Shown here: piece after piece, positions 21,228 through 26,964 of the stretch
Numbering within the stretch: the first letter of the stretch is position 1
Layout: each line of letters opens with the position of its first letter
DNA from: Qipengyuania sp. SS22
GTDB taxonomy: Bacteria > Pseudomonadota > Alphaproteobacteria > Sphingomonadales > Sphingomonadaceae
Direction: 5' to 3'
Length of the DNA stretch: 64,000 bases
NCBI RefSeq assembly: GCF_025736935.1
Contig: NZ_CP107048.1
Coordinates: 1,550,001 to 1,614,000, forward strand
Notes under the pieces: model-generated
Seen by the model: the letters and a program-made list of their open reading frames with translations, nothing else
The model's database searches: none
Told to the model about the DNA's origin: nothing
Program-made: the position numbers and the translations under genes

Positions 21228-22250
21228 TCAGCTGTCGTCGGCGAGCGCGTGTTTCTTGATGCAATGCCGTAGCTGATCATACGACAGACCAAGCGCCTTG
21301 GCGGTCTGGCGCTGGTTCCAGCGATGCTTGCCCAGCGCATGCTCGACGATGGTGCGTTCATGCCCATCGACCGCCGCGCGCAGATCGTCGATGCTTTCCA
21401 GATCGGGCCCGGAGGACGCGGGCGCGGCCGTGGGAGCCGCTGCCTGGTCTGCGCGAAACGCGGGACTGAGGGGTTTCCACGGACTGTCGAAGGGGTCGAA
21501 CACCGCATGGCCGATCGGTGCGCTCCAGTCGTCCCAGCGATAGATCGCGCGCTCGACGACATTGCGCAATTCGCGGACATTGCCCGGCCAGTCGTATTTC
21601 TCGAGCTGCTCGGCGACATGCGGCGCAAAGCCCGGCCAGCCTTCCCAGCCAAGCTCGGCGGCCATCCGGCGGCCGAAGTAGTCTGCCAGCACTTCGACAT
21701 CGCCCTCGCGTACGCGCAGCGGCGGTAGCGTGATGACCTCGAAGGTCAGCCGGTCGAGCAGATCGGCGCGAAACTCGCCGCGCTCCGCCTTGGCCGGCAG
21801 ATCTTCATTGGTCGCGGCAACGATGCGCACATCGACGCGTGTCGGACGACTCGAACCGATGCGGGTGACCTCGCCATATTCGACCGCGCGCAGCAGCCGT
21901 TCCTGCGCGCCCATCGACAAAGTACCCAGTTCGTCGAGAAATAGCGTGCCCTTGTCGGCTTCTTCGAACCGGCCCGCGCGCACTCTGGTAGCGCCGGTAA
22001 AAGCGCCCGCTTCATGGCCGAACAATTCGGCCTCGATCAGCGTTTCGGGCAGCGCGGCACAGTTCATGACGACCAGCGGTTCGTCCCACCGGGTAGAGAG
22101 GCGATGCAGGCGCTCGGCGATCAATTCCTTGCCGGTTCCGCGCTCGCCGATGACCAGCACCGGGCGCCGCATCGGCGCCGCGCGACTGGCCCGTTCGACC
22201 GCGTCGAGAAAGGCCCCCGACTGGCCGATAAACTGATTTTCCCGCTCCAT
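21228..22250 (-). CDS. pspF: Phage shock operon activator PspF
   Basis: 340 residues. A sigma-54 activator ATPase without a receiver domain, the hallmark of PspF. Walker A is GERGTGKE, the sigma-54 contact loop GAFTGATRV is intact, and FLDELGTL serves as Walker B. The arginine-finger region and the C-terminal Fis-type helix-turn-helix (NQRQTAKALGLSYDQLRHCI) follow. A Pro/Ala linker of about 40 residues separates ATPase and DNA-binding parts. It is divergent from the psp operon and faces its sigma-54 promoter at 22351. In E. coli PspA holds PspF inactive; the same is expected here. Confidence 0.94.
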   Translation of the reverse strand: MERENQFIGQSGAFLDAVERASRAAPMRRPVLVIGERGTGKELIAERLHRLSTRWDEPLVVMNCAALPETLIEAELFGHEAGAFTGATRVRAGRFEEADKGTLFLDELGTLSMGAQERLLRAVEYGEVTRIGSSRPTRVDVRIVAATNEDLPAKAERGEFRADLLDRLTFEVITLPPLRVREGDVEVLADYFGRRMAAELGWEGWPGFAPHVAEQLEKYDWPGNVRELRNVVERAIYRWDDWSAPIGHAVFDPFDSPWKPLSPAFRADQAAAPTAAPASSGPDLESIDDLRAAVDGHERTIVEHALGKHRWNQRQTAKALGLSYDQLRHCIKKHALADDS

Positions 22251-22350: not shown

Positions 22351-22366
22351 TGGCACAGCGCTTGCT
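22351..22366 (+). promoter_or_regulatory. Sigma-54 promoter of the psp operon
   Basis: TGGCACAGCGCTTGCT matches the -24/-12 consensus TGGCAC-N5-TTGCW exactly, with GG and GC in the correct 10-bp spacing. It lies 49 nt before the start of the 50-residue ORF. The divergent activator PspF is the obvious partner; its binding sites are expected in the 22251-22350 region, but I cannot define them. Confidence 0.92.
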
Positions 22367-22414: not shown

Positions 22415-22567
22415 ATGTATAACCGCAGTTTCTTCCGCAGCCAGCTTGGACAGGCCGCCCTCGCCAGCATGGCAGCGATGGCCACTTTCGTCCTGCTGAG
22501 TTCGCAGATCGCGGTGACGGCACCCACGCCGGTGCTGGCCGCATACGAACAGGTCGAGATCGCATGA
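22415..22567 (+). CDS. 50-residue membrane peptide, first gene of the psp operon
   Basis: Function not recognised. The peptide starts MYNRSFFRSQLGQAAL and has one hydrophobic segment at about 14-43 (AALASMAAMATFVLLSS... APTPVLA), followed by the polar end AYEQVEIA. It could be a signal-anchored or cleaved peptide; the APVLA-type end fits a signal peptidase site. GGGAG lies 9 nt before the ATG, and the sigma-54 promoter is immediately upstream. Its stop overlaps an ATG at 22564 (ATGA) that opens an in-frame extension of pspA. The position suggests a role in the Psp response; this is inference. Confidence 0.72.
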   Translation: MYNRSFFRSQLGQAALASMAAMATFVLLSSQIAVTAPTPVLAAYEQVEIA

Positions 22568-22593
22568 CCCTGCCTCCCGATCATGATCCCCTA

Positions 22594-22654
22594 GGGCCGG
22601 AGAGTCGGTCCCCCGACAGTCCCCGCGGCAGCAATGCCGGCGACTCTCCGGCCC
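22594..22654 (+). repeat. Perfect 14-bp inverted repeat in the pspA leader
   Basis: GGGCCGGAGAGTCG at 22594-22607 is repeated in exact inverse at 22641-22654, with a 33-nt loop. It would form a very stable RNA hairpin between the 50-residue ORF and pspA. No T-run follows. It lies 129 nt before the pspA start and inside the alternative frame that begins at 22564. Confidence 0.85.
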
Positions 22655-22782
22655 GCCCCGATCACCGGCCGCGCTTGTCGCGTATCGAGGAAGAGGTAGA
22701 ACGGCTCCGCCGGTCGCCGACTCCGACCCGCGACAGCGGACGGCCCAAGACATCGGACTTTTTCTCCAGTGGAGCACCATTG

Positions 22783-23472
22783 ATGGGCATTTTTAGCCGA
22801 ACTCGCGATATCATCGCCGCCAATTTCAACGATATGCTGGACAAGGCGGACGACCCCCAGAAGATGATCCGCATGATTATCCTCGAGATGGAGGAAACGC
22901 TGGTCGAGGTCCGCGCGAGCGCCGCGCGCACCATTGCCGACCAGAAGGAAATGCACCGCCACACGGTCAAGCTCGACAAACTCCAGGCCGACTGGAACGA
23001 GAAAGCGCAGCTCGCCATCTCGAAGGACCGCGAGGATCTCGCCCGCGCCGCGCTCGTCGAGAAGAAGAAGGCGGTCGATATGAGCGAGCAGCTCAAACAG
23101 GAAATCGCCGTGCTCGACGACGCGTTGCGCGCCTATGAGCAAGACATCCAGAAGCTGCAGAACCGCCTGCGCGAAGCCCGCAGCCGGCAGACGGCGATCG
23201 CCGCCCGGCTCGAAAGCGCGGAAAACCGCGTCAAGCTGCGCAGCCTGATGACCAACGAACGCGTCGACGATGCGCTGACGCGGTTCGACCAGCTCGAACG
23301 CCGCGTCGATTATGCCGAAGGCCGCGCCGATGCGCTGAGCATTGCCGACAACTCCGACAAGCCCAGCCTGTCGGACGAGATCGCCGCGCTCGAGGGCGCC
23401 GATGCGATCGATGATGAACTCGAACAGATGAAGAAGGCGCTCGGCAAGGGCAGCGCCGGCAAGGAGGACTGA
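22783..23472 (+). CDS. pspA: Phage shock protein A
   Basis: 229 residues of the PspA/IM30 (ESCRT-III-like) family, which coats stressed inner membrane and inhibits PspF. It begins MGIFSRTRDIIAANFNDMLDKADDP, the typical amphipathic membrane-binding helix, and then is almost wholly coiled coil to about residue 190. GGAG lies 8 nt before the ATG. The same frame is open upstream to an ATG at 22564 and would add 73 Pro/Arg/Ser-rich residues; I regard the short form as the main product because it starts exactly at the family N-terminus. Confidence 0.96.
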   Translation: MGIFSRTRDIIAANFNDMLDKADDPQKMIRMIILEMEETLVEVRASAARTIADQKEMHRHTVKLDKLQADWNEKAQLAISKDREDLARAALVEKKKAVDMSEQLKQEIAVLDDALRAYEQDIQKLQNRLREARSRQTAIAARLESAENRVKLRSLMTNERVDDALTRFDQLERRVDYAEGRADALSIADNSDKPSLSDEIAALEGADAIDDELEQMKKALGKGSAGKED

Positions 23473-23477
23473 GACCC

Positions 23478-23774
23478 ATGGAAGAGCTTATCATCATTCC
23501 CGCGATCTTCATCGGGCTTCCGTGGATCATCCTCCACTACATCACCAAGTGGAAGACATCGGCCACGATCACCGGCGACGACGAAGCCCTGCTCGAGGAA
23601 CTCTATAACCTCGCCAAGCGGCTCGATGACCGGATGGACACGGTCGAACGCCTCGTCGCCAGCGACAACCCCGAATTCCGTCCCGGCCGCATCGTTCACG
23701 ACAGCGAGCAGGACAACCAGCAGCTGCGCGAACTCGAGCAGCTGATTGCCGAGAAAAAAGGAGCCAAGCTGTGA
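23478..23774 (+). CDS. pspB: Phage shock protein B
   Basis: 98 residues, somewhat longer than the 75 or so of E. coli PspB. One N-terminal membrane helix (IIIPAIFIGLPWIILHYI) is followed by a cytosolic coiled coil with the PspB block AKRLDDRMDTVERLVASDNPEFR. PspB and PspC sense envelope stress and bind PspA to free PspF. The gene starts 5 nt after pspA, and its stop overlaps the GTG of pspC by 4 nt. The extra C-terminal 25 residues form a second short coil (QLRELEQLIAEKK). Confidence 0.9.
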   Translation: MEELIIIPAIFIGLPWIILHYITKWKTSATITGDDEALLEELYNLAKRLDDRMDTVERLVASDNPEFRPGRIVHDSEQDNQQLRELEQLIAEKKGAKL

Positions 23775-24148
23775 ATAGCCCCCGCACCACGCTTTACCGC
23801 GACAAGCAGAACGCGAAACTGATGGGTGTCTGCTCGGGCATCGCGGATTACACCGGCGTCAACGTGTTCTGGGTCCGGCTCGGCTTTCTCGGCCTGACCT
23901 TCATGTCCGGCGGCTCGACCATCCCGTTCTACTTCATCGCCGGCCTGCTGCTGAACAAGAAGCCCGCGCACCTTTATGTCGATCACGAAGAGCAGACCTA
24001 TTGGCAGCGCGTGCGACAGAACCCCAAGCGCACCGCCCGCGAAATCCGCGCGCGGATGAAGGATGTCGACCGCCGCCTGGCCGATGTGGAAACCTTCTAC
24101 GTCAGCAACAATCCGCGGCTGACCGCCGAGATCGAACAGCTGCGCTGA
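23771..24148 (+). CDS. pspC: Phage shock protein C
   Basis: 125 residues. The PspC domain has RDKQNAKLMGVCSGIADYTGVNVFWVRL and the membrane helix FLGLTFMSGGSTIPFYFIAGLLL (about 15-63). A cytosolic tail ends in a coiled coil, RRLADVETFYVSNNPRLTAEIEQLR, that matches the tails of PspB and the small genes downstream. It starts with GTG at 23771, overlapping the pspB stop. Membrane partner of PspB in relieving PspA inhibition. Confidence 0.92.
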   Translation: MNSPRTTLYRDKQNAKLMGVCSGIADYTGVNVFWVRLGFLGLTFMSGGSTIPFYFIAGLLLNKKPAHLYVDHEEQTYWQRVRQNPKRTAREIRARMKDVDRRLADVETFYVSNNPRLTAEIEQLR

Positions 24149-24172
24149 GCGAACGAGAGGGGGAGAAATCAC

Positions 24173-24484
24173 ATGGAAAACCTCGGAGTATTCGTCCCGA
24201 TCATTGCGCTGATGATCCCGATCGTCGCGATCTGGACCAAGCATCAGCAGAAGCTGGCCGAAATGAACGTCCAGACGACCGCCCAAGCGACCGCCGAAAA
24301 AGCGGCTCAATATGCCAGCCAGGTACATGATCTCGAAGACCGCGTCCGCGTGCTCGAACGTATCGTCACCGACAAGGGCTACGACGTGGCCACACAGATC
24401 GAAGCCCTGCGCGACCAGCGCAGTGTGGAAGAGCGCGGCAGCGGCGTGCCGCTGGGAATGAAACAGGGGGAACAGGCGCTATGA
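24173..24484 (+). CDS. PspB-like small membrane/coiled-coil protein 1
   Basis: 103 residues, first of six similar genes after pspC. A membrane helix at about 6-23 (VFVPIIALMIPIVAIWTK) is followed by a polar helix rich in Ala and Gln. The PspB-like module DRVRVLERIVTDKGYDVATQIEALRD lies in two parts at about 61-86, and a short tail follows. GAGGGGGAG precedes the ATG. The stop overlaps the next ATG by 4 nt (ATGA). No enzyme motif is seen. By position and module it should join the PspABC membrane complex; this is inference. Confidence 0.8.
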   Translation: MENLGVFVPIIALMIPIVAIWTKHQQKLAEMNVQTTAQATAEKAAQYASQVHDLEDRVRVLERIVTDKGYDVATQIEALRDQRSVEERGSGVPLGMKQGEQAL

Positions 24485-24822
24485 ACTGGGGAGGACCTGA
24501 ATTCGTGCTCGCGATCATCGCGCTGAGCACCGGCGGCTGGCTGCTGAACAACTGGATCCGCGCCAAGCACGGTTATTCGCTCGAAGATGAATGGGGCGGC
24601 AAGACCGAACGCAGCGACACTGCGGAAACCACGGCGCTGAAGGCGGAGAACCGCCAGCTGCATGACAAGCTCGATACCATGCAGGACCGCATGGTGGTGC
24701 TCGAAAAGATCGTCACCGACCGCGGCTATTCGCTGCATGATGAGATCGAAGCCCTGCGCGACAAGCGCACCGGCACCGACGCGGGCGTACCGCTGGATAT
24801 GAAGCGCGGGGAGAAGGCATAA
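24481..24822 (+). CDS. PspB-like small membrane/coiled-coil protein 2
   Basis: 113 residues. Membrane helix at about 7-25 (FVLAIIALSTGGWLLNNWI), then WIRAKHGYSLEDEWGG, a string almost repeated in protein 3. The coiled coil carries DRMVVLEKIVTDRGYSL followed by EIEALRDKR, and the tail VPLDMKRGEKA mirrors VPLGMKQGEQA of protein 1. These shared strings make recent duplication likely. The start overlaps the previous stop by 4 nt, and the next start shares one base with this stop (TAATG). Confidence 0.8.
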   Translation: MNWGGPEFVLAIIALSTGGWLLNNWIRAKHGYSLEDEWGGKTERSDTAETTALKAENRQLHDKLDTMQDRMVVLEKIVTDRGYSLHDEIEALRDKRTGTDAGVPLDMKRGEKA

Positions 24823-25130
24823 TGGAATTCATCAACGAAACCACCGTGATCGTCGGTGTAGCCGCGCTTTCGCTGGCCTGGATTGCCAATACCTGGATCC
24901 GCGTCAAGAACGGCTACCCGCTCGAAAACAGCTGGGGCAAGTCGGTCTATCCCAAGAACGACCAGGCGGTCGAACGGGTGAAGCTGCTGACACAGGAAAA
25001 TGCCGAACTGCGCGCCGAACTTGGCTCGCTCAAGGACCGGCTGGGTAATGTCGAACGCATCGTAACCGACAGCGGCTATCACCTCACGCATGAGATCGAT
25101 CGCCTTCGCGACACGAAGGATGCCAACTGA
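24822..25130 (+). CDS. PspB-like small membrane/coiled-coil protein 3
   Basis: 102 residues. Membrane helix at about 8-24 (TVIVGVAALSLAWIANTWI), then WIRVKNGYPLENSWG, close to the same place in protein 2. The coil AELRAELGSLKDRLGNVERIVTD is followed by HEIDRLRD. It is the clearest paralogue of protein 2. The next gene's ATG shares the last base of its stop (TGATG). No known function. Confidence 0.8.
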   Translation: MEFINETTVIVGVAALSLAWIANTWIRVKNGYPLENSWGKSVYPKNDQAVERVKLLTQENAELRAELGSLKDRLGNVERIVTDSGYHLTHEIDRLRDTKDAN

Positions 25131-25444
25131 TGGACGGTGATCTTGCCCTCATCTTCGGGTTCATCCTCGCTATCGTGATGCTGGTGCTGCCCTTCGCCTA
25201 TTTCATCAACCAGCGCGTGCAGGAGCACGAGGAACGCAAGCTGGAGCTCAAAGCGCGGGCGGAAGAAGCCAAGGCCGACCAACTGCGGTTCTCCAACGGG
25301 GACTACAGCAAGATGGAAGAGCGCGTCCGGGTGCTTGAACGCATCGCCACCGACAGCAACCATGCGCTGGCCTCGCAGATCGAGGAATTGCGCGACCTGC
25401 AGGAAATCGAAGACCGCACCACCCCGCGCGAGACGGCACAATGA
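25130..25444 (+). CDS. PspB-like small membrane/coiled-coil protein 4
   Basis: 104 residues. Membrane helix at about 6-24 (ALIFGFILAIVMLVLPFAYF), then a charged helix (VQEHEERKLELKARAEEAKADQL). The module ERVRVLERIATDSNHALASQIEELRD is at about 64-89. ERVRVLERIATDSNH resembles the C-terminal coil of E. coli PspB (ERIQALESILDAEHP) in pattern. The next start overlaps by 4 nt (ATGA). Confidence 0.8.
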   Translation: MDGDLALIFGFILAIVMLVLPFAYFINQRVQEHEERKLELKARAEEAKADQLRFSNGDYSKMEERVRVLERIATDSNHALASQIEELRDLQEIEDRTTPRETAQ

Positions 25445-25716
25445 GTTTCTGGACCGCCGTTGTCGTAATCGTCGCCATCAGCGCGATCGCCGGGGTTTTG
25501 CGGGACCGCTACAAGGCGATCGGCCGCGCCGAAAAGGCGCGGCAGGCCGAGCCCGAAGAGCGGATTTCCGCTGCGGAGAAGCGCGAGGTCGAGGAACTGC
25601 GCGAGAGGATCAAGGTGCTCGAGCGGATCGCCACCGACGGCAATTCGCTCGACGCAAGCGAAACCAAGAGGATTGCCGCCGAAATCGAAGCCCTGCGCGA
25701 CCAGCGGGCGGATTGA
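25441..25716 (+). CDS. PspB-like small membrane/coiled-coil protein 5
   Basis: 91 residues. A short membrane helix at about 3-20 (FWTAVVVIVAISAIAGVL) precedes a charged coil. The module is ERIKVLERIATDGNSL, then an extra KRIAAEIEALRD, so the two halves are spaced a few residues wider than in proteins 1-4. The start overlaps the previous stop by 4 nt. A 31-nt gap follows. Confidence 0.78.
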   Translation: MSFWTAVVVIVAISAIAGVLRDRYKAIGRAEKARQAEPEERISAAEKREVEELRERIKVLERIATDGNSLDASETKRIAAEIEALRDQRAD

Positions 25717-25747
25717 GAACGGCAAGGTTCAAGGAGGACATGAGGTA

Positions 25748-25990
25748 ATGTTCGAACCGACAATGATAATCGCCGGCGCTTCGCTGGTCGGCCTGACCAT
25801 CGTCGCGGCAGCCCTGCTGCGGGCATGGTACGGGTGGCTGGCTCTCAAGCGCCAGGAGCTTGAACGGCACCACACCGGCACCGAAGAGCGCGAGACGGGA
25901 TCGTCGGTCGGCGCGGCGCGGATCGAGCTGGCCGACCTCAAGGAACGCATCAAGAAGCTCGAAGCCATCGCCAGCGGGGTCGATTTGTGA
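25748..25990 (+). CDS. PspB-like small membrane/coiled-coil protein 6 (shortened module)
   Basis: 80 residues. Membrane helix at about 5-27 (TMIIAGASLVGLTIVAAALLRAWYGW), a polar middle, and a C-terminal coil, LADLKERIKKLEAIASGVDL. It keeps the first half of the shared module but ends before the EIEALRD half. ATG 25748 has GAGG about 5 nt upstream. The stop overlaps the following GTG start by 4 nt. Confidence 0.75.
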   Translation: MFEPTMIIAGASLVGLTIVAAALLRAWYGWLALKRQELERHHTGTEERETGSSVGAARIELADLKERIKKLEAIASGVDL

Positions 25991-26163
25991 CCGTCGTGCG
26001 CACCGATGCCGCCCGCGCCGGAATCGGCCTCGGCACTGCCATCGCCGTGGCGATCAGCTGGAGCCTGCACCAGTCGATCGTCTGGGCGGTGATCCACGGG
26101 TTCTTCGGCTGGTTCTACGTCGCCTATTTCGCGCTTACCCGGCCTGGAGGGCTGACCGGCTGA
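25987..26163 (+). CDS. 58-residue two-helix membrane protein
   Basis: Not recognised. Starts with GTG at 25987, inside the stop of the previous gene (GTGA). Two hydrophobic stretches are seen at about 10-25 (RAGIGLGTAIAVAISWSL) and 31-50 (IVWAVIHGFFGWFYVAYFAL), and a short basic-free end follows. It lacks the coiled coil of its neighbours but is translationally coupled to them, so it is probably the last gene of the psp operon. Confidence 0.68.
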   Translation: MTVVRTDAARAGIGLGTAIAVAISWSLHQSIVWAVIHGFFGWFYVAYFALTRPGGLTG

Positions 26164-26612: not shown

Positions 26613-26964
26613 GTTGAAGCGGCCGATCTACAAGGGCCTCGGCTTCCTGGCCGTCGGGCTTGGCGCCGTGGGCGCAGCGCTGCCGATCATGCCGACGGTG
26701 CCTTTCCTCCTGCTGGCGGTCTATTTCTTTGCCCGGTCGAGCCCCGAACTCGAACAGAAGATCCTCGATCATCCGCATTGGGGGCCGCACGTGAAGGACT
26801 GGCGCGAGCGCCGCGCGATCAGCCGTCGTTCGAAGACCATGGCGATCGGCGCGATGGCCACCGGCGCGGTCTTCACCTGGTATACGCTGGGCCACCCCTG
26901 GTACTGGATTTCAGTGGCGGTGCTGGTGATCTGCGGGAGCTGGATCGCCACGCGCAACGAATAG
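26587..26964 (+). CDS. DUF454 (YbaN-like) inner membrane protein
   Basis: 125 residues. The family motif is GLGAVGAALPIMPTVPFLLLAVYFFARSSPE in two parts, with two to four membrane helices. It continues LEQKILDHPHWGPHVKDWRERRAISRRSK, a well-kept DUF454 signature. ATG 26587, preceded by AAGGA, lies inside sufE; a TTG at 26614 just after the sufE stop is an alternative. Function unknown in the family. Confidence 0.87.
   Translation: MPRGSRPVELKRPIYKGLGFLAVGLGAVGAALPIMPTVPFLLLAVYFFARSSPELEQKILDHPHWGPHVKDWRERRAISRRSKTMAIGAMATGAVFTWYTLGHPWYWISVAVLVICGSWIATRNE

Follow-up and report, generated by a model that had tools for sequence, protein, structure and literature searches.

A 64,000-nucleotide stretch of the genome of Qipengyuania sp. 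SS22 (contig NZ_CP107048.1, positions 1,550,001 to 1,614,000), hereafter the window, contains a psp operon in which pspC is followed by six small genes, designated S1 to S6. The operon is preceded by the divergent gene for the sigma-54 activator PspF (21228..22250, minus strand; TIGR02974, 465 bits against a cut-off of 443.55). On the plus strand lie pspA (open reading frame 22564..23472; TIGR02977, 276.6 bits), pspB (23478..23774; TIGR02976, 94.2 bits against 51.7) and pspC (23771..24148; TIGR02978, 126.1 bits against 104), and all four genes pass the NCBIfam equivalog cut-offs. After a gap of 24 nt, pspC is followed on the same strand by S1 (24173..24484), S2 (24481..24822), S3 (24822..25130), S4 (25130..25444), S5 (25441..25716) and S6 (25748..25990). 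These coordinates agree exactly with those given in an earlier note made from the sequence of this DNA, as do the overlaps of 1 to 4 nt between successive genes and the 31-nt gap before S6.

S1 to S5 are membrane proteins with a single predicted helix and a C-terminal module of two halves, R-x4-E-R-I-x-T-D and, after a short spacer, E-I-E-x-L-R. S2, S3, S4 and S5 are built like S1; in S5 a 7-residue insert separates the halves, and among the six S2 has the lowest helix hydrophobicity (score 1.48 against a cut of 1.6). S6 has a membrane helix and the first half only, in agreement with the remark in the earlier note that the last copy lacks EIEALRD. The C-terminal repeat described there is real: over the 222 array proteins of the 69 loci examined (one locus has none), the core columns are conserved at 100% (R), 100% (E), 95% (T), 94% (D), 98% (I) and 100% (L), rounded, despite a median best identity between two copies of one genome of 34% (maximum 61%). 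A helix was called in 166 of the array proteins; K/R residues are in excess on its C side in 163 of them, with three ties and no reversal, and the other 56 of the 222, like S2 of the window, fell under the cut. The S genes are under purifying selection, with dN/dS values against a congener of 0.20-0.46 for S1 to S5 and 0.28 for S6 (PspB, 0.19; PspC, 0.10; SufE, 0.15); against a closer relative, no S gene exceeds 0.18. Four database proteins look like fusions of two such units, each known from a single sequence in which a frameshift or assembly error is possible.

A promoter shared by the array and pspABC, on which the earlier note had made its proposal depend, has a candidate in the -24/-12 site TGGCAC-N5-TTGC at 22351..22365 (plus strand), upstream of the operon, which is the sole strict sigma-54 match when both strands of the window are scanned. 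The looser pattern TGG[CT]A[CT]N5TTGC lies upstream of pspB in 26 of 55 loci from the same family (Sphingomonadaceae). Between 22200 and 27200, no terminator-like site was found on the plus strand, and eight were found on the opposite one. The genes behind pspC, namely S1 to S6 and a gene for a 58-residue membrane protein, overlap or are tightly spaced, and sufE comes next. From this arrangement we infer that S1 to S6 are transcribed as one unit with pspABC.

Relationship to PspB and the PspC tail

No S protein reaches the cut-off of a curated PspB model (25.6 bits for PF06667 and 51.7 for TIGR02976, with best scores of 15.8 and 22.8, respectively), and the PspC domain PF04024 has no match in S1 to S6 at E<=1. 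Weak matches were recorded for S1 (TIGR02976, 22.8 bits; TIGR02978, 20.8 bits), S3 (TIGR02978, 19.8 bits), S4 (TIGR02978, 17.7 bits) and S5 (TIGR02976, 15.4 bits). When profiles were compared by hhalign, the profile built from S1 to S5 matched PspB at 95.7% over 27 columns. For the PspC tail the figure was 80.9% (40 columns) with tails from outside the family and 94.3% with those from inside, and thus S1 to S5 bridge PspB and the PspC tail, which match each other at 14%. Reversed or unrelated control profiles gave 0.2-9.3%, the reversed controls of the PspB comparison 1.8-3.0%. The profile match to PspB suggested in the earlier note was therefore obtained for S1 to S5; S6 is tied to the group by its match to S1 to S5 (95.4%).

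A search of the window's own genome with the S profile, in which 28 candidates were scored, returned S1 to S5, followed by the PspC tail (E 0.0019) and S6 (E 0.046), and nothing further at E<=10. The module that the earlier note had placed in both the S proteins and the PspC tail is thus upheld within this genome as well as by profiles. In an alignment of ten proteins (PspB and PspC of E. coli; PspB, PspC and S1 to S6 of the window), just two columns are invariant, those of R97 and E102 in E. coli PspC. S1 to S4 align with the PspC tail without gaps across both halves, while E. coli PspB stops after the first; both halves are common only to S1 to S5 and the PspC tail, and EIEALRD, the second half, is absent from E. 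coli PspB. Shuffled sequences aligned with the E. coli PspC tail as well as S1, S3 and S4 did in 11, 2 and 11 of 1000 cases, respectively, so that these three stand out. Against E. coli PspB, S1 stands out (8 of 1000), and S3 (66) and S4 (142) do not.

Hence S1 to S5, as judged from their sequences, are not simply copies of PspB. The earlier proposal that PspB was duplicated into a family holds as regards common ancestry, which the profile match suggests for S1 to S5 and PspB. It is not supported as regards a multiplication of PspB itself: no copy reaches either PspB model, the second half is a feature of the PspC tail, and the nearest match in the own genome outside the array is that tail. 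An assignment of the S genes to a phage family was rejected, the two PHROG matches being weak (best E 0.0069), and a sequence search for solved structures related to PspB or PspC found none.

Distribution of the array and its relatives

The family was surveyed with one genome per genus (59 genomes, of which 57 have PspC). An array stands behind pspC in 56 of the 57 PspC-bearing genera sampled, as the earlier note would have it for close relatives, and the idea that it is confined to the species of Qipengyuania sp. SS22 is ruled out by this family-wide occurrence. Counted as profile matches to S1 to S5 over the window and 55 further loci, some of which end at a contig end, the copies number 0 (1 locus), 1 (7), 2 (5), 3 (21), 4 (11), 5 (7), 6 (3) and 7 (1); in the seven-copy locus one gene is modelled only as a 36-residue piece. 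The 57th PspC-bearing genome, G040, has two S copies. Among 80 named loci picked by likeness to S1 (Qipengyuania, Erythrobacter and others), 78 have 2 to 8 copies. The protein AOL22920.1, which comes up in connection with Ravi et al. 2024, we take to be from Erythrobacter.

The two family genomes without PspC also lack PspA, PspB, S genes and a PspF over cut-off. PspF passes its cut-off in 56 of the 59 genomes, in line with the co-occurrence expected in the earlier note; the third genome without it is an assembly 67% complete. When array proteins were assigned to types 1 to 5 (209 of 222 could be typed), 108 of 123 adjacent typed pairs kept the 1-to-5 order, the full copy that closes the array was of the S5 type in 52 of 56 family loci, and S6 was present in 49 of 56. 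By these sequence types, the array is mostly in conserved order and derives from old paralogues. Recent duplication was rejected as its main source, the copies being both diverged and ordered.

Outside the family, in a sample limited to PspC genes close enough to the query, S genes are absent from 36 of the 40 psp operons examined. None of the 11 matched operons from elsewhere in the class has one. Of the 38 that matched in the order's other families, 29 were examined, and four of these have an S gene. All four belong to family f153, of which seven operons were examined; in them pspB and pspC are joined by a second pspC without the tail, and a single S gene follows it. Two Sphingomonadaceae loci (L151 and L163) have, between pspB and pspC, an additional gene with a PspC domain but no tail. 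In the alphaproteobacterial locus L171 (2860000-2868500 of genome G232), two more genes lie behind pspC, one distinct from it whose product ends like the PspC tail and one further PspB-like gene, which may be an independent case; a second PspB-like gene is also present at L187.

Relatives of the S proteins also occur away from psp operons. At a threshold of E<=1e-4, the S profile matches 46 of 398 genomes sampled from the phylum. The family accounts for 19 of them, and in each of the other 27 there is a match that is distinct by coordinates from the genome's own PspC gene. PspC (E<=1e-18) is present in 45 of the 46 profile-bearing genomes versus 27 of the 352 without the profile (Fisher p 3e-39, a statistic that ignores the relatedness of genomes). 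We retrieved 20 outside-operon loci, of which 15 of the 27 genomes supplied 19; their small genes carry the module, and the pspB and pspC profiles recognise no pspB or pspC there. The neighbours at 15 of these loci, read by eye, include none that is psp-like, and some are common between loci. A sigma-54 site with at most one mismatch lies upstream in 3 of 20 relatives versus 2 of 145 controls, and membership in the PspF regulon was not supported, perfect sites being found in 0 of 20. About positions 41-121 of TIGR02978 are matched by several members, some of f153 and some from outside the class; on TIGR02976, one relative from beyond the class reaches 40.7 bits, short of the 51.7 cut-off. Two adjacent S-like genes stand away from pspC in L240 and L251 (alphaproteobacteria, f146), and an outside-operon protein of a Sphingomonadaceae genome (L246, 4228-4617) joins a Cys-containing N-terminus to an S-type tail module.

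The single exception among the 46 profile-bearing genomes is G040, listed as 100% complete, in which pspA and an 88-residue PspC without a tail are followed by two S genes. No PspB was found in it at E<=0.05, and its PspF is on a separate contig. Judged from its gene content, G040 has lost PspB and the PspC tail yet retained the array, apparently a case of natural replacement.

Other features of the locus

The 58-residue membrane protein (25987..26163, plus strand), last in the run of overlapping genes, has no family match; a match to it occurs in 47 of the 80 named loci, thus in some relatives only. Since the TIGR02977 match of pspA begins at residue 74 of the open reading frame, the canonical start is near 22783. 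Ahead of it lies a 73-residue in-frame extension (22564-22782) containing the stretch RIEEEVERLRRSPTPTR, a loose form of which recurs upstream of pspA in 68 of 119 family loci, so that PspA there seems to bear an extra N-terminal segment before its first helix. Directly downstream of the sigma-54 site is a 50-residue open reading frame (22415-22567) with no NCBIfam match and a loose pattern found in 6 of 119 loci. Beyond sufE, 26617-26964 encodes a DUF454 (YbaN-like) membrane protein scoring below the NCBIfam cut-off.

A possible role in PspA docking

PspA is a bacterial relative of ESCRT-III, and we know of no settled account of the route that brings it to a damaged membrane. Published work is cited here from the passages covered of each paper. 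The cytoplasmic C-terminus of PspC binds PspA in the on state and releases PspF (PMC5596341), and binding of PspA by the PspC tail is in print for E. coli and Yersinia (PMC5596341, PMC3068692). In E. coli, residues 40-119 of PspC, that is, the membrane segment and the tail, bind PspA and can induce psp without PspB; a leucine-zipper mutation abolishes the binding, and a direct PspB-PspA interaction was not seen (PMC3068692).

S1 to S5 have the make-up of this fragment and fit an N-out/C-in orientation, and we therefore propose, with about even confidence for and against, that they are extra PspC-type tails which dock PspA at the membrane together with the PspB/PspC assembly. Under this docking model S1 to S5 would be single-pass inner-membrane proteins with the tail facing the cytoplasm, co-produced with PspA, PspB and PspC from the operon driven by PspF and sigma-54. 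Divergent in helix and linker, they would assemble with PspB and PspC, and their tails would keep PspA at the membrane under stress beyond the capacity of one PspC. S6, with the first half only, could pair with other S proteins and leave the PspA site incomplete. The binding of PspA, the assembly and the part given to S6 are alike inferred from the sequences. In favour of docking are the homology of the S proteins to the PspC tail, their co-occurrence with PspC, and the gene content of G040 and of four of the seven f153 operons, where S genes follow a tail-less pspC. A sphingomonad cell may thus build a set of PspA docking sites where other bacteria have one.

Several observations weigh against docking. 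Every S match to the curated PspB and PspC models falls below cut-off, and outside the family the S1-S5 profile matches PspB better than it matches the PspC tail. Shuffled sequences fit the E. coli PspC tail as well as S2 and S5 do in 97 and 296 of 1000 cases; against E. coli PspB these two stand out (1 and 13 of 1000). The S6 profile has no direct match to PspB (4.8%) or to the PspC tail (2.9%), and by shuffling S6 is not outstanding for PspC (289 of 1000) and weak for PspB (30 of 1000). AlphaFold2 models S1, at low confidence, as a single unbroken helix, and the PspC tail as helix-break-helix (pLDDT 62 for both). The E. coli PspC tail is treated as periplasmic in the classical topology, and a topology switch has been proposed (PMC3068692), so that C-in cannot be taken for granted in E. 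coli PspC. One genus of the family (L147) has pspABC and no array, one f153 operon (L188) lacks an S gene but has the second, tail-less pspC, the looser sigma-54 pattern has no match upstream of pspB in 29 of 55 family loci, and perfect sigma-54 sites are lacking at all 20 outside-operon relatives.

The alternative that survives best, possible but on the unlikely side, is that the S proteins are PspB paralogues which bind PspC and each other through helix and coil and so tune sensing, without binding PspA. Although the second half, nearly invariant in S1 to S5, is missing from E. coli PspB, no S protein passes a PspB cut-off, and the next match in the own genome is the PspC tail and not PspB, such paralogues would suit PspB as the best profile match outside the family, the better fit of S2 and S5 to E. 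coli PspB, the 40.7-bit relative, and the name 'PspB duplicates' given to operon extras by Ravi et al. 2024 (PMC11237479). It is improbable that the S proteins are independent envelope-stress effectors, whose module serves only mutual assembly and whose place in the operon gives co-induction: members away from psp loci, the variable copy number and the divergent helices and linkers would be expected of them, but a full PspC over cut-off accompanies such members in 27 of 27 genomes outside the family, and the best-conserved columns are those in common with the PspC tail. Chance or convergence among unrelated short coiled coils of similar composition is very improbable: the sequences are indeed short, charged and helical and several single-sequence comparisons are not significant, but reversed-profile controls gave 2-9% against 81-96%, PspB, PspC and S1 to S6 are in the same register, and the own-genome search yielded psp-operon genes only.

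If the docking model is true, the Psp system of sphingomonads works with numerous membrane anchors, and G040 shows which Psp part could not be spared. The same few residues, kept in more than 200 diverged proteins and including R97 and E102 of E. coli PspC, mark a likely contact, and the S proteins offer single-helix material for studying the PspA contact apart from the PspC domain. In a broader and more tentative reading, the PspC tail would be a portable PspA-docking cassette, detached, given its own helix and multiplied, which in at least one lineage replaced the work of PspB and the PspC tail; a multivalent PspA scaffold would then stand in place of one PspBC complex.

Ravi et al. 2024 (PMC11237479) contradict the statement in the earlier note that a single PspB is the rule in known Psp systems: according to them, PspB duplicates occur in the psp operon and PspC may carry a divergent C-terminal PspB. 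The core observation is therefore partly in print. For these duplicates the passages covered of that paper mention neither how many copies there are, nor an array structure, nor their taxonomic spread, nor a second half, nor members outside the operon. Beyond its general statement, no sphingomonad Psp array was found in searches of the openly accessible literature, a scope that leaves aside subscription papers and supplements, and none appears in the passages covered of PMC9239133. Apparently new with respect to this literature are an array that is both ordered and variable, its second half of PspC type, its occurrence across the family, the PspC-linked members outside the operon, and G040.

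With PspB (PF06667, TIGR02976) the S proteins have in common an N-terminal membrane helix, predicted in their case, a coil with the R-x4-E first half and a place in the psp operon. They differ in that S1 to S5 have the second half that E. coli PspB lacks, in scores below both PspB cut-offs, and in the presence of a true pspB beside them. Unlike PspC, they have no PF04024 domain, are encoded by separate genes, several per operon, and score below the PspC cut-off; with the C-terminal part of PspC (about 42-121 of TIGR02978; 40-119 in E. coli) they share a membrane segment and a two-half tail in the same register.

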